From the NCBI GenBank assembly GCA_026120035.1, contig JALRME010000024.1, forward strand, positions 372,001-436,000: a stretch of 64,000 nucleotides of DNA. The letters are read 5' to 3'. The stretch comes from Coleophoma eucalyptorum (lineage: Eukaryota; Ascomycota; Leotiomycetes; Helotiales; Dermateaceae). Made by a program: the position numbers and the translations under genes. Shown one piece after another: positions 2,029 to 36,500 of this stretch. The notes below the pieces were generated by a model. The model made no database searches. It was given only the letters and a program-made list of their open reading frames with translations, and was not told the origin of the DNA. How positions within the stretch are numbered: position 1 is the first letter of the stretch; each line of letters opens with the position of its first letter.

Positions 2029-5011
2029 TCAGGCCCAGACCATCTTCTTCAAACTGTGACCCAGTTGCTCGAAGACAGTTGTACTCCTTCTAGCCTCGGC
2101 TAACGAGATAATGTCCCCCTCTTCAACAATGTTCATCTTCTTGTCTGATCCTGCCTCAACAGCTCGTCCTGACATCACCATCCGTTCAATGTCAAAACAA
2201 ATTGTCATGACCTGCTCAATCTCACTAATCTTGGCAGCGGTAGCATCGTCGGCAAGTGCTGATCGAGATGAGAGAGCCTTGAATGCTAGTATCTTTGTTG
2301 GGACACCAGCTGGTTGCAGTGGCTGGAATAGACTTGTCAGAGCCTTCAATGGTGGCGTAGCATGAGCCGGTTCTGGTACGTCTGAAAGCTCGGGCGTGGG
2401 TTGTAGGGTGGATAATGAGCGAGTGTTTACACGCGCAACATCATCTGCCCCGGCTGTGTAGGTAAGTACGAAACCAACATTTCGCTTTTCATCCGCTTGG
2501 GCAGCAGATAGAGTCGATGTGACATAGGTACCATACTTGATGGCCAAGATGTGTTGCAGATTGATTCTCTCAAACGAAGACACTTTCTCCGTATCCCACG
2601 AAAAGCGACAGGCATAAAGAGCACTGTCTGTGAGCAGCAGAACAGATTCCTCGAATGGCAAAGTCTTGATGGTGTTGGAGTCCGATGGAGTCAAGAGAGT
2701 CCATCCTGAAATGAATTCTTCATGGTCGTCTGCTATCACAAGCTTTTGCGAAATCTCAATAGCCTGCTGCCGCATCTTTTGCATTGACACAGCTGGGTCG
2801 CCGCTCATCATATTGGCTTCAAAATCTTCGAAAACCATGGATGTTACATTTCCAACGAGGAAATCAATCGCTGCTTGGCTGAAGTAGTCGTTGACAATTC
2901 CACTGTAAAAGCGACTTATGCTTAATCCCATATCAGTAAGGGCACCTTTATAGTTCCTCTGTCGAGTTCGTGTGAAATCTCCTTTCAAAGCTGCAGTGGA
3001 TGCATATTGCTTCGAGATAGCATCGCCATTATCGGCCCAGAGAGTATTGAACCATGAAGTAGCTTGATCGGGCTGTTTGCTCAGGTCAATTCCCTCGCAC
3101 TTCAACTGTATCTCCAGGGCTCGTCTTCCACAGGCACTTTGAACCACGTTGGTACGGTCTAGACAATCCATACAATTGGTACGCAACACTCCACTTTGCT
3201 TTACTAGAAGCTTGCCATCAACCTCGACGCTATTTCCGAAGGCGTCGAGCTGTTTTTCAAGCGAGTCCATCAATAAACTGACGTTTTCAAAGTGCATGCC
3301 CTTACAGACTGCGTGGAAATCAAACCAATTCATCCCTAATTTGTGTCCATTAACCCCGCCCGATTCATTCAATCGTGTCATGTTTTTCTCGTAGGCATCT
3401 CCGACGATAGCCTCGTTTCCATGTTTCTCCACAAGCGAGGCCACTTGGACTGAGCCATAACGTTCGGAAAGATTGTTGAAGTGCGTCTTGAAAGCTTTGA
3501 AATTGAAGTCCTCGGAATGTAAGAGCTGGGGAACTGGTTTGAAAGAATAGGGTGACTGAGAGAAGAATATAGGGATACTGCCCCGGATCTGGACGAAAGA
3601 ATATATCTTGTTTGAAGCGGTCCAATCTGGGTCGGATAGGATTTGCTCCGTTTCAACGCAATTAGCCGTGTGGCCTTCTTCATCAACTCCACGCCTTAAG
3701 TATCTGAGACCAGCACGCTTAATAGATCTCCTAGAGATCAACGTTAACATAAAAGACTTCTCTGACTTGGTATCACTGGCTTCCGTGGCATTTTCAGGGC
3801 CCGAATGTGCTCCTTCGGTTGGCTTGACCTTATGACCATCTTGTGATAATTCAGTCAACTCCAGAGTGGATTTTCCAGCTCCATCAAGGGTCATAATTGG
3901 CTCAGGTGGATGAGGATCCACGGTAAATGACTTCTGTCCAATGAAGCCTTGCATCAGCGGTAAAACCAGAGACGCATGGCCAGCATCTATAAAAGGTTGG
4001 GTCAAGCTCCTGTTCCAGAAAAATAGAGGATCTACTTCTTTATGAAGTGGTAATTCGGAGCCCGTTGTTCGCCGATTTGCAAAACTCCTCGTGATATCAT
4101 AATCGTAGGAAAAGAAGAAACTTCGGGAAGAACCAAAGAGTATTTGGGTTGTCCGCAACAGTTTAGGCAACATATTTTGTGCTACATCGTTTGCATTTTG
4201 GGCCTTGACGTCCTCGAGGCTTGGTTCACTAACTGTAGACTCTTCTCCTGAAGGCGTTGGCGCTTCGGCAGGTGGTTTTGGTGTATCTGCTCCAGATTCA
4301 GTCACACTCATACCGAGGTTTCTTCTTTGATCAACAGTCCATCCTTTTTTGGAGAACCATTTTTGAGCAAACCGTCCATAACTTCCCTTTCTTGTAATGA
4401 CGTCTTGTGCGACACTGGTTGATTTCTTGTGATGTCCAGTGCCATGCTCCTTGTTTGGAGATGCCGAACCAGCAGCACCAGAGTGTATATGATCTTCATC
4501 ATCATCTACATCGTCACTTGCGCCAGCAGAAAGGCCACCCTCATCGTCAGATGAGTCGCTGTCGTCTGAGCCTGAACCATCAATTGTCCTTCTCAACAGC
4601 GAGGCAGATGTTTGGCCAATGGACAGCTCTGCCTCAGCCCGGGAAGCTAGAGGTGTCAAGGCGACCTCAGTAATAACATATATCGGCTTTCCTTGTATTT
4701 GTGCTATTTGTTGTCGGCGTGTAATTGACACCAAGAAGGACGACTTTGAGACGGTGAGCAGGCCTATCAATACCATCAGCGTATGTAATGTTGCACCTGG
4801 ATTTAAAGAACAAACCAACTATTCCAAATGCCTCAAAGCTGCGCCCTACTCCATCGGTTTCAACTCCATCTTGTACCACCAGCGCAATGCTCTTGTCTTT
4901 GTATGCGATTTTAGAGGCTGGTGCGGGGCGCTGGCCTCTTTGCGCCAACGGCTGCAGGACAAGGCCATCTATAGCAGCAAAGATGAGGATCTTTCGCGCA
5001 AGACCAGGCAT
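2029..5011 (-). CDS. Sac-domain phosphoinositide phosphatase with hSac2 domain
   Basis: The gene has two exons, complement(2029..4763, 4816..5011), giving 976 aa. The 52-nt intron at 4764-4815 has a GTTTGT donor, a GCTGAT branch and a TAG acceptor; splicing joins FGIVG to LLTVSKS. The start at 5011 (MPGLARKILIF) is the conserved N-terminus of this fungal group. The Sac domain spans roughly residues 50-730, with the catalytic CX5R motif CMDCLDRT near residue 595 and the typical IRGSIPIFFSQ upstream. After it comes an hSac2-type domain, as in INPP5F/Sac2 proteins. An acidic Ser/Asp-rich insert sits around residue 130. The enzyme should remove phosphates from phosphatidylinositol phosphates on membranes; the exact isomer cannot be told. 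A frame that starts at 4818 is an artefact of reading through the intron. Confidence 0.9.
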
Positions 5012-29954: not shown

Positions 29955-30356
29955 ATGTCTCAATCTACAGTCAAACACAGCAATCCGTCCAGCGTCGCCG
30001 CCTCACCTTACTACCACCACGTAAGCACCATCACAACACCATCCAAGATAATCTATACCGCAGGCCAAATCGGGCGCGACATAAATGGTACACTCGCAGC
30101 AACTTACGTCGAGCAAGTGAAACTCGCCCTCCAGAATCTTAAAGCATGTCTCGAATCTCAAGGTGCTGGACCTAAGGACATAGTCAAACTCACTTATTTC
30201 ATCGTCGGCTACGATTCGGCCACGAGAGATCACGCCGGTCCGATCTATGAGTTTCTCGGCGATAGCAGGCCGCCTACCACGTTGATTCCGGTTGTGGCTC
30301 TGGCGTTGCCCGGCTTGCTGTTCGAGATCGAGGCGGTTGCTAGTATGCCATTGTAG
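29955..30356 (+). CDS. Rid (YjgF/YER057c/UK114) family protein
   Basis: This is a single-exon gene of 133 aa from the ATG at 29955. Family segments are IIYTAGQIGRDINGT, YVEQVKLALQNLKACLESQGAG, DIVKLTYFIV and the C-terminal LALPGLLFEIEAVASMPL. Rid proteins form trimers, and the RidA branch hydrolyses reactive enamine/imine intermediates from amino-acid metabolism. By eye the position of the RidA catalytic arginine appears to be Thr (RPPTTLIPVV), so this is probably a non-RidA subgroup whose substrate is unknown. It sits 280 bp downstream of the alpha-galactosidase on the same strand and is followed by the U2 gene. Confidence 0.85.
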   Translation: MSQSTVKHSNPSSVAASPYYHHVSTITTPSKIIYTAGQIGRDINGTLAATYVEQVKLALQNLKACLESQGAGPKDIVKLTYFIVGYDSATRDHAGPIYEFLGDSRPPTTLIPVVALALPGLLFEIEAVASMPL

Positions 30357-30813
30357 GCTGGCTCTTGGGGAGAACCTGTAGAATTATTGCGTTGTAGTTG
30401 CATGGGTGGGGGATCTGGAAGGAACCCTTTATCAGTTTCAAGACACAGGATATTAAGTCCTCATTCTACAAAATTGTGGCGATTTAAACTTTACTATATA
30501 TGTAAACTACAGTAGAAAAGATAAGATGGAATTGCATGATGTCTAGTGACTCTGGGTATGACAATAAGACCTTTCCCGGATAGAGCAGATGTATTCTGAT
30601 ACCACATTAAATAATATTCTCCGGTCTCTCCTGAGAGTCTAAATCATCATCTTATTAGAGATTCATCCAGACGTAGGTTTGAATATTGCCCAGACGTTTC
30701 GATGTTGTTAGAACCTAGCAACGATGACTCTAATTACCAGGTCAGCTGATTCACTTTGATCAACCATCAAACATTCCCCGTGCTAGCAAGCGCACTAGCG
30801 CACCTCCAAAATC

Positions 30814-30820
30814 TATATAA
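30814..30820 (+). promoter_or_regulatory. TATA box of the U2 snRNA gene
   Basis: TATATAA lies about 50 bp upstream of the inferred U2 5' end, followed by a C/T-rich stretch at about 30830-30866. There is no protein frame here to explain such a strong core promoter. Confidence 0.5.
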
Positions 30821-30866
30821 GCGGAAGGTTTTCCCATCCTTTCCTCTTCTTTTTTCTTTTCTCTTT

Positions 30867-31050
30867 AGCTCTCTTTGCCTATTGGCTTAGATCAAGTGTA
30901 GTATCTGTTCTTTTCAGTTTAATCTCTGAAATGTTTCTAAGGAAACAATCAATGATTATACTTATTTTTGTTCCTCGAGATCAGTCCTCTGTGCTTGCGC
31001 ATGATTGTTCTCACTGTGTCCTCAGTATTACACTGCCTCTGAGAGACGCG
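30867..31050 (+). ncRNA. U2 spliceosomal snRNA
   Basis: The sequence from about 30867 matches the universally conserved U2 5' domain: CTCTTTGCCTATTGGCTTAG, then ATCAAGTGTAGTATCTGTTC and TTTTCAGTTTAATCTCTGA. GTAGTA at 30898-30903 is the branch-site pairing element; introns in this window carry matching CTRAY branch sites. A perfect hairpin GTTTC-TAAG-GAAAC at 30933-30946 fits stem IIb. The Sm site ATTTTTG is at 30964-30970. Stem-loop IV is CTCAGTATTACACTGCC plus the closing TCTGAG at about 31021-31043, mirroring the metazoan loop. Length is about 184 nt, close to human U2 (187) and far from the long yeast form. The ends are estimated by alignment from memory to within about 10 nt. It is transcribed by Pol II and acts in the U2 snRNP at pre-mRNA branch points. 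Confidence 0.93.
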
Positions 31051-31502
31051 ACCATTTTCATTGCGGGTTCTTGACTTTGTCAGAACTGTGAAGAAATTGG
31101 GAAATGTGACCTAGCAATATAATGTTTTGATTCGATGTTAATTGAGAGCATGGAAGCTGATATTGAGCTTAAGTGATTGTTTGCGCAAACTTTAAAAAGG
31201 AGCTCCAAGCTTTGACTCGATGCTGGAAGGTGGAAGCATCACGACGTGTATGTCAAAAAACGCGTTTGCACGTATGACCTAGAAACCATGATCTATTTAC
31301 CATCCATCATGCATGCCTAGCCAGCGCATGCGCAAGTATATGCTGTTGACTACACTGATATGCTAGTTTACTTTAAATCCCCTTGCGCATGTATCGATAG
31401 TTTATCAAATTCCAGAAAATTGACCTTTTTTTGACCACTCGTTCGTGCGCGTCGTGATATCACAAAGTGACGGCCAGACTCGCTCCACGCAACAATTAAA
31501 AA
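31051..31502. other. Intergenic between U2 and translin genes
   Basis: No gene is seen. A perfect palindrome GCGCATGCGC lies at 31324-31333, and TTGCGCATG recurs at about 31383 and inside U2 near 30995. Confidence 0.4.
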
Positions 31503-32378
31503 ATGGCAGACGCAACACCCATAGGAATGGTCGATCCTAGGATCTTCGAGGACCTTCAGACCAAGATCGATGAAGATGCCGAAGTGAGAGAGCAGATCAG
31601 AGTCATCCTGACGGCCTTGGAGCGTCAAGGTCGCAGCACCCAGTCGATTCTCTCCAGAGCGCATTCCACCCCCTCCGCACAACGTAGATTTCTCCCCAGC
31701 CTATGCTCAGCTGCAGCGCTGATTCTTCATAGTCAAGCCGGTCATCGAGTCTGCAGAGAACAGCATCCGACTCGAGATCGAGAGTGTTAGCAAGCTATCC
31801 GAAGTAGCATCCAAGCACCCATATTACAAGTACGCAGCCTAGCACGCCGTCGAGCAAGCTCTGACAGTTCCAGATACAATGGCATGTGGAGTCGAGATGT
31901 CCAAAATGCCATTACATCGATCCTCCTGTGCGGATGGCTCGGTGGCATGGCGATGACTGGCAAGCCAGCTGAGGCCGGAAAACTTCTCACGATCGAGGAG
32001 GTGGGAGAGGTCATGAATGGTAGCTATGGCATTCCCCTCTTCACTTGGGCATCTACTGATGCATGTATAGTTCCTGTCAACCTCAAGGACCGCGATGCCT
32101 TCCACATCTCCATCGAAGAGTACCTTCAATCTTTAATCTCCGTCATTGACGAGCTTGCGCGACTGGCCATCAACTCCGTCACTCTTGGAGACTACCAGCG
32201 CCCTCTTCAAATCAGCCAGTTCGTCAAGGATATACATGCTGGTTTCCAGATCCTGAACCTCAAGAACGATTCTTTGAGAAGACGAAGTGATAGCATCAAG
32301 TACAGCGTCAAGAAGATTGAGGATATCGTATACGATCTTTCACTCCGTAACCTAGTACCAAAAGCTGGTGCTTCATAA
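31503..32378 (+). CDS. Translin
   Basis: The gene has four exons, 31503..31683, 31733..31829, 31874..32019 and 32071..32378, giving 243 aa (human translin 228). All introns are 44-51 nt with CTGAY branch sites. Helical translin segments are LERQGRSTQSILSRAH, IESVSKLSEVASKHPYYK, WSRDVQNAITSILLCGW, FHISIEEYLQSLISVIDELA and RLAINSVTLGDYQRPLQIS, then the very typical FQILNLKNDSLRRRSD and IKYSVKKIEDIVYDLSLR. Translin binds single-stranded nucleic acid as an octamer and with TRAX forms C3PO. Intron 3 (51 nt) has no stop and keeps frame, so an intron-retained form with 17 extra residues (260 aa) is possible. The spliced form aligns better with the family. Confidence 0.92.
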
Positions 32379-33583: not shown

Positions 33584-36500
33584 ATGTTGAGCATTGCTGC
33601 CGTTTTAGATGGAACTTACAACAACAAACTCGAGCCACAAGTCACTTGCAGAGAATTGGAAGGCGGGTGAACTCACAACCAAAGTGTAAGACTGGTTCAA
33701 CTGGTTCGTGAGACCCAATATATCGGTATTGATCCAGCCTTCTGCATTCGGACGTTGGTAGCAGGTTTTGATGGGTTGTAGTTGACCATCCGACTACAAG
33801 GAGTAGATTGTAGCCGAGGAATCAACCACAATTGTCCTCCCACATGTCTTCAGAACCAAGTTCAAAGAAAGCCCTGAATGGAGGAGAACAAATTTGAATT
33901 TTCTACCCAGCTCTTAACAAGAACTAAATATATCTTGTTGTCGTGAGCTCAAGTGTCCAATTACCTTCCTAGAATAGGCACACTACAGCCTACTGAATAA
34001 CTGCACTCGAGCAAATGACCGACAACCCACCCCTAAGTATATGTATGTAACAGCGTTGTTCAAATCCTATTTGTAAGTATGAGAGAGACAGTGGTCAAGG
34101 ATAATACACATCGAAGGGGATATGACTGAAGGGTACGAATCCCCCAATGCCACTAAATGTTCATGAACTTTACACTATGTTTAATTGCATGCATAACTTA
34201 CGACAAGCCTCCGCGGCAGTGATATGCAGGATTTGCAGGCACTTTTACAGCACCTCGTTGGGAGAGAGACTAGTGGATAAGAAATGGTTGTCTCAATATT
34301 TGCGGGCAACAGGTGATGAGAACATACTACTTCTTTAACGCATTGTTTTGAACCGCAAGGACAAGTCTACTGCAGCCCAGAATAAGGAAGGGGAGGGGAT
34401 GGATGTGCTGGCTTGCAGCGAGAAATCGGATCTCTTCCATGCTCTACCCGAGCGTCAAGAATACATATTGTGGTTACAAATGATGAGAGCAGAAGGTTGC
34501 ATTATAGAATTTCCCTCGACGTCAGCTTATGCAGCCCCGGATGCATATTGCATGCAGACTGCATTCATGTCTCCACTGTGTAGGACGATTAACTGCTAGT
34601 TGACACCGAGCAGCTCTTTTTAAATCGAGCATGCGAGCGTCAGGATTACGGAGGGCTCCACAACCATGGTAACTCAATGTAGAATCAATTCCCGCGTGGT
34701 TTAAACATGATGTTAGAATTGCCCTGCGCCCCACGCTTCACGTACTTCACAGGCGCATTTCTTCGATATGCTCGCGTAACTGGCCTGAAGCATTGAAATC
34801 GAAAGCCTAATGATTCTGCCCAGAGTAGGCAATTGCACAGCCTGCCACTGCATCCAGCGGACATTAAACATAACGATTCTATTAACAGACATGATGCGAT
34901 GCACATCCTGACATATTTTGCAGCATGAAACTTTTTCCTTCGTGCCATTAGTCTCGCAAGTTTTCAGATATATCAACAAACAGACCACGAGGAGGTCCAA
35001 TGAGAAAAGGGTTTATCTGGTAGCCTTGTGCGTAAACTTCCGCCAAGGTGATCGGTTGCTGCAGGGGCCGATAAAAAAGCAAAGAGCCTGCGGACGTCCA
35101 ATGTAATAGAAAAAAAAAAAGAATATAGAATTCTCAAATGATTCTTGGCTTTCAACATAATAAGCATGCCAAGTACCCTTCCAAGAACCCCGCATTGTAT
35201 AGCCGCTCCAAGAATGCTAAGTATCCAACATTCTTGGACACAAGAAATCCAAGATGTTTTCATTGGACCAAAAGTAAGCCCCAAAGTGCAAGAGAGCTTG
35301 GTAAGGCTTGATCTGACTTCGAGTTCTGTTCTCGATCAAAAGTCTTCGAAGTCTACGAATGGAAAAATAAAAAGAGAAAACGAACAAAGTTGAAATCGTA
35401 TACCCATCAATCAACTGATCTCGAGGCGGAAGTATAGTATGCGCTCACTAGAATATGGGTTTTTGCCGCGATCCCTGACTTTCCCGTATATTCGTATCGC
35501 ATATACTAGGAGGATTTCGGGCTCGAGATGATTTCAGCATCTCAACCAAGACCATGCCTAGTTAAGTTTGAAAACACCATCAACCGAAAGTCTGATAAGA
35601 GGTCTCGCAATCTATGTGGATCAAAAACGAGTTAGATTCGGTGTCCTCTTGGGGTCTCCAGTATCTAAAATAGATAGATAGCTCAGCAATGAAGTAAGTG
35701 CCAAAATACACTGACAATAGCTCGTCTGCTCTCTCTCATCCGCAAGTATTACAAGCACGAGATTCGGCCGGACCATGACTTCAGGTCTAACCAAGTCGGA
35801 CATTCTCTCCGAGGATGGCGTTGTATGGTCGGTCTACGAGCTGAACAAAGGCGGCACCCGGGAGAAGTGGTTGAGCATACGACCTCTTTCCATTTGTGCG
35901 AGAGACTACCGATACTCTGCCACTAAGTGTATCCAACGGGTGCTCGACATTGTGGATTATGAGTTGCTGGCTCACACGACGAAAGTCAAACAGCACTAGG
36001 TCTGATGAAAGTCGAGAGAGTTTTGGCCACGTTATGAAGATCCATATCCGCATCCGTTAGAAACAAGGTTGGAAATTTGGAATGCCGAGACAATCTTCTT
36101 CACTCCGGAGCGAAGAGTCTGCAGATAGCAGCGGGGAATGTCCCTCGTAATGAAGATGACAGGAGGACAGCGCCTCGGGCGACTGAGCCAAGCTCCAGCC
36201 TTAAGCCCCATTCCAAAGAGCCGTCAATTTGTAGGGCAGCTGAGAATCCCACCACTACCATGACTTCTCGTGGCGGCACCTAACCTAGCCCCAACACCAC
36301 GCTAAAGGCACCAAAGCTTGCTTCTTTTGCACTTGGCATGCAACGAACCTGCCCGTTCCATCGATGCGAACAGTTACAGCAAGCCTTCACTGATAAGGTG
36401 TCGGAAGGATCATTGCAGGTGGGAATGAAAGGCACAATATGTGCGCGTAATTCGCAACTCGGTTAGCTTGGATAGGTGAAGCTCGAGTCGTGGGTGATTG

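Follow-up and report, generated by a model that had tools for sequence, protein, structure and literature searches.

The question raised by positions 30867-31050 of the window, by which the whole 64-kb stretch of DNA analysed is meant, is whether they hold a complete U2 snRNA gene and, if so, which signals would govern its transcription and the formation of its 3′ end. The search with the Rfam U2 model (RF00004) that the first-pass annotation had proposed as a check returned a full-length match at 30865-31057 (+), which covers model positions 1-192 of 192 and scores 157.7 bits against a gathering cut-off of 46 (E 8.8e-33; cmscan). Nothing else in the 64-kb window reaches an Rfam gathering score. 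The predicted mature RNA (30867..31050, +), whose ends are predicted from the sequence, starts with an A at 30867 and closes with the final base of stem IV at 31050, and no ATG-started ORF of at least 100 aa lies over it, as had been claimed. The parts of the architecture described for the locus are located where that description placed them: stems I, IIa, IIb, III and IV are all present in the Rfam match; the branch-site pairing element GTAGTA (30898..30903, +) sits in the conserved context AGATCAAGTGTAGTATCTGTTCT and is conserved in the three U2 copies discussed below; stem-loop IIb occupies 30932..30947 (+) in the cmscan structure; and an Sm-type site, ATTTTTG (30964..30970, +), so called by what we take to be the Sm consensus and predicted to be bound, lies between stem IIb and stem III. 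U2 binds Sm proteins and pairs with branch sites via GUAGUA and with U6 via its 5′ end. The 5′ end of the window U2 (GCTCTCTTTG) can pair, at -11.5 kcal/mol and with one mismatch, with CAAAGTGAGC in the sole U6 gene found, and this pairing with the 3′ part of U6 is consistent with the U2/U6 helix II. The RNA 30867-31057 folds more stably than 200 of 200 shuffles (z -3.76), its minimum-energy fold departing in places from the textbook U2 fold. The window locus is a real, ordinary U2 snRNA gene, a member of a known family, and such a gene is expected in any fungus with introns.

The length of about 184 nt, which had been singled out as metazoan-like, is that of eukaryotic U2 RNAs in general, the Rfam model itself spanning 192 positions; for a Leotiomycete there is nothing unusual about a U2 of ~185 nt, and the length is no surprise. 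The exception is the Saccharomyces lineage, the only one known for a much longer U2, in which a lineage-specific expansion has brought the RNA to about 1.1 kb. Elsewhere in the window, a sub-threshold Rfam match at 4946-4988 (+; 21.4 bits against 38.3), the only extra one at E up to 1, was taken as chance.

The wording "metazoan-like" is also the sole support for a foreign origin of the gene, be it contamination of the assembly or the acquisition of an animal-like U2 from another source, and such an origin is contradicted by the gene's setting. The gene lies on a 690-kb contig surrounded by fungal genes, flanked on one side by an ORF of the RidA/L-PSP family (29955-30356) and on the other by a translin gene with its first ATG at 31503 (Pfam match on the ORF 31884-32378). 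The window also encodes a 596-aa protein of the MGS1/WRNIP1 type that has 92% identity to one of Coleophoma cylindrospora (Helotiales, Dermateaceae), the other 119 proteins among the matches listed being at most 78% identical; judged by this protein, the host is a Leotiomycete close to C. cylindrospora. In addition, the promoter and the downstream hairpin of the window U2 are held in common with other loci of the genome. We regard foreign origin as next to impossible.

The first-pass annotation had implied a single U2 gene. Gene counts here refer to loci found, those of large families being lower bounds. At least three U2 loci of the 45.3-Mb genome exceed the RF00004 cut-off: U2a, which is the copy in the window (contig C18, 157.7 bits), U2b (C6:267617-267810, 151.6 bits) and U2c (C7:626018-626218, equivalent to L003:1501-1701, -; 114.5 bits). 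The copies were compared within this one fungal genome. The three loci have the RNA structure, the promoter block and the 3′ hairpin in common. Between U2a and U2b, 184 of 185 aligned positions of the RNA agree, with one gap column, and their far flanks are unrelated (41% identical upstream, 35% downstream); U2a and U2c are identical at 129 of 185 positions (~70%), with 10 gap columns. As their sequences indicate, the three are dispersed copies and not a recent segmental duplication, and we infer that selection or gene conversion keeps U2a and U2b alike. The first-pass annotation had named, as a finding that would refute it, a second intact and expressed U2 locus beside a silent one here; of this, the second intact locus exists in the form of U2b, known by its sequence. 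It could be supposed that U2b does the work and that the window copy is a silent gene or pseudogene, given so similar a second copy and a G of the 3′ strand of stem III that U2b has kept and the window copy has lost. The window copy nevertheless outscores U2b in Rfam, has kept its own CTAGCG box, TATA box and 3′ hairpin, and carries a compensatory change in that hairpin (GTTCT/AGAAC against GCTCT/AGAGC), all of which makes its silence highly improbable. The window U2 gene is very likely functional, as far as its sequence allows this to be judged.

The divergent copy, U2c, appears from its sequence to have diverged without decay of its helices. In all three U2 copies, the 34 alignable pairs, which come from stems I, IIa and IIb, the upper part of stem III and stem IV, are standard (102/102 cells), a count that leaves out the lower stem III, which is unalignable, and a U.U pair of stem I. 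Six of the 34 pairs are changed on both sides in U2c and two on one side, and none is broken, while sliding the pair partners as a control gave at most one two-sided change; in stem IIb, two of six pairs show two-sided changes with pairing kept throughout. None of 200000 random placements left every pair unbroken, a null that assumes unbiased substitutions and is a rough guide. In U2c the base after GTAGTA is A, not T, and the Sm-type site reads ATTTTTC against ATTTTTG in the window copy; its 5′ end pairs with U6 at -9.9 kcal/mol, and it has its own promoter boxes and 3′ hairpin. A nucleoporin encoded next to it on its contig has 95% identity to its C. cylindrospora counterpart, indicating the same kind of fungus. 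Seen in a single genome, the compensatory changes and the conservation of the flanking signals raise the idea that U2c is a working, specialised U2 variant with a preference for another subset of branch sites or for certain stages; the fungus would then possess U2 snRNPs of two kinds. The fold of U2c barely beats shuffles (z -1.02, 34 of 200 being as good), which counts against reading much into this copy, and such specialisation seems doubtful; this divergent paralog would nonetheless be worth testing for a separate splicing role.

Other small-RNA genes of the genome provide the comparison for the flanking signals. Three U1 loci were found whose Rfam scores of 58.8, 47 and 46.6 bits (E 2.6e-9 or better) fall short of the cut-off of 69.5, and standard annotation may therefore miss this fungal U1. 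All three start with ATACTTACCT. Two of the U1 genes (L005, L006 and L007; contigs C33, C57 and C79) are nearly identical to each other and one is clearly different. Two U3 genes match RF01846 above its cut-off of 95 bits, with scores of 119.8 and 120.7. Introns are known in the U6 genes of fungi. The U6 gene found here (contig C33) is split within its ACAGAGA box by a 54-nt mRNA-type intron (L004:1479-1532, +; GTAAGT...TTCTAAC...CAG), and its spliced form matches the U6 consensus far better (90.5 against 60.0). Both U3 genes contain a predicted intron of 56-57 nt (L050:1236-1291 and L051:1208-1264, +; GTGTGT...CTGAC...TAG), with U3 consensus scores of 30.5 spliced against 10.5 and 23.5. The U4 gene possibly carries a 56-nt intron near its 5′ end (L008:1631-1686, -, contig C101; GTAAGT...CTAAT...TTTTAG). 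TATA spacing is in favour of the U4 intron, the consensus scores are about equal (spliced 15.5, unspliced 14.5), and the U4/U6 pairing is slightly better unspliced (-20.2) than spliced (-19.1). For U5, this genome gave no match with RF00020, as was the case for the control genomes, nor with a loop-plus-Sm pattern; U12 of the minor spliceosome was matched neither in this genome nor in the control genomes. Beyond fungi, one scan of viral contigs for U2 relatives gave 0 matches, and a scan of prokaryote genome contigs gave four stretches on three contigs (L016, L018 and L019) that are assigned to bacterial metagenome bins. These contigs carry U2, two of them also U1, and one also 5S rRNA and histone stem-loops; judged by the U1, U2 and histone stem-loops aboard, they were rejected as prokaryotic relatives and taken as eukaryotic contamination, and are thus of no use for the fungal comparison.

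Upstream of the window U2, the TATA box that had been noted about 50 bp before the gene is present as TATATAA (30814..30820, +), 53 bp before the predicted start. It is preceded by a CTAGCG box (30795..30800, +), which is common to the U1, U2, U4 and U3 genes found and for which a PSE-like role may be envisaged, and by a block CAGCTGAT...CAAACA (30743..30773, +) that is common to all three U2 loci in their alignment. CTAGC or TAGCG occurs upstream of a TATA-like box in 9/9 genes (three U1, three U2, one U4 and two U3). The background frequency of the box, counted over 46.5 kb of loci with some of these promoters among them, is 0.0012 per base and strand; because the nine genes amount to four families, the independent evidence is less than nine-fold. 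In these nine genes, the box lies ~16-28 bp before the TATA-like box, and a further 39-56 bp separate the latter from the predicted start, which for U4 and U3 is taken as that of the predicted first exon. The CTAGC/TAGCG box is absent from the 110 bp upstream of U6, which has a TATA-like stretch ~30 bp before its start and ends in a T run. A TATA-like stretch at about this distance, together with a terminal T run, is expected of a Pol III gene.

Directly downstream of the predicted RNA, a hairpin at 31051..31098 (+) is a putative processing and termination signal for an RNase III of the Pac1/Rnt1 type, delimited by a covariance-model match, covariation and folding. It is common to seven genes found by family search (three U2, three U1 and one U4), in which it lies near the end of the Rfam match or overlaps it. 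In the seven hairpins the lower stem is almost constant (TTTCATT...GAAGAA) and the upper stem variable; a 19-pair structure has 91.5% of cells paired and nine pairs with two-sided changes, against 42-57% of cells and 0-3 two-sided changes for slid partners. As paralogs have a common descent, it is the comparison between the U1, U2 and U4 families that counts as independent. Folded singly, the hairpins range in z from -1.28 (U1a) to -3.74 (U2c), with -2.05 for the window copy. The sequence pattern alone is near chance, with 114 matches against 102 in a reversed control. Among 38 of these matches that were folded, chosen by eye from 100 listed of the 114, the five lowest energies belonged to U2c, U2b, U1b, C57:147796 and C5:1114225, the window copy and U1a standing 8th and 9th behind two decoys. 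The stretches C57:147796 and C5:1114225 are the 3′ flanks of the U3 snoRNA genes (RF01846), which thus surfaced through the hairpin probe without U3 being sought. A covariance model, R1, built from the seven U1, U2 and U4 hairpins was run on 36 sources (195 kb) and gave 40.8 and 28.5 bits for the U3 hairpins, which are outside its training set, and 54.6 bits for the window hairpin, itself a training sequence; the best other match in the 36 sources (19.8 bits, E 0.11; window 36093-36160, -) was taken as chance. At U6, no hairpin of this kind was recognised. Literature titles, a weak test at that level, included none that suggests a common CTAGCG box or a hairpin of this kind for filamentous fungi. 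The hairpin and the CTAGC/TAGCG-TATA promoter may help to locate small-RNA genes transcribed by Pol II in related fungi.

The genome, to judge by its encoded sequence, contains a candidate enzyme for this hairpin, an RNase III of the Pac1/Rnt1 type. The 356-aa ORF at C101:967805 matches Ribonuclease_3 with 54 bits and a dsrm domain with 20.6 bits, just under the cut-off of 23. Its best solved chain is 5t16_A ("Ribonuclease 3", E 3.5e-26), from a structure that we take to be yeast Rnt1. In fission yeast, the U1, U2, U4 and U5 genes are each followed directly by a predicted stable hairpin (PMC8421224); Pac1 is bound at these genes and not at U6, U3 is an earlier known Pac1 target, and when Pac1 is out of the nucleus RNA polymerase II piles up downstream of the U1, U2, U4 and U5 genes. 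Pac1 is described there as requiring a helix of at least 20 nt with bulges tolerated, the fission yeast stems being predicted at 23-32 nt (PMC8421224); the hairpin model here has 19 pairs, slightly fewer than either figure, over 22 columns, with an A.A mismatch. A hairpin that served as a protein-binding or Integrator-like 3′ box, its pairing incidental and the 3′ ends made by another route, would be expected to be constant in sequence, as its most conserved parts (TTTCATT, GAAGAA) are, and cutting by RNase III is what we infer from the fission yeast case. Such a box would not account for nine pairs that vary on both sides with pairing kept, nor for the Pac1-controlled hairpins reported downstream of the same gene set (PMC8421224), and it is an unlikely explanation. 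On this comparison, the downstream hairpin is probably a processing signal cut by RNase III.

RNA polymerase II would then be recruited via the TATA box ~53 bp upstream and the CTAGCG box, as their conservation suggests, and transcription would pass through U2 into the hairpin just past stem IV. The Pac1/Rnt1-type RNase III would cut the hairpin, and the cut would free the 3′ end of U2 for trimming and aid termination, both by analogy with fission yeast; the RNA would subsequently bind Sm proteins and base-pair with intron branch sites, by means of GUAGUA, and with U6, by means of its 5′ end. To the account as a whole, that of a Leotiomycete U2 gene transcribed by Pol II from a TATA/CTAGCG promoter, with a hairpin cut by RNase III and an RNA used in splicing, we assign a probability of about 0.93.

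Among known systems, the window copy lies within the normal variation of the RF00004 family throughout, its stem III being somewhat irregular. The RNA and its role are alike in Saccharomyces cerevisiae, where U2 is ~1.1 kb long against ~185 nt in the window. Neurospora crassa has three U3 genes that are transcribed independently and contain one small intron apiece (PMC2780460); several intron-bearing U3 genes are thus present in both fungi, with two found here against three and splicing predicted here. Compared with fission yeast (PMC8421224), the lower stem here is near-constant across RNA families and the helix a little shorter, cleavage is putative and U5 was not found. Both fungi have in common a hairpin after the U1, U2, U4 and U3 genes, none recognised at the Pol III gene U6, and an encoded RNase III.
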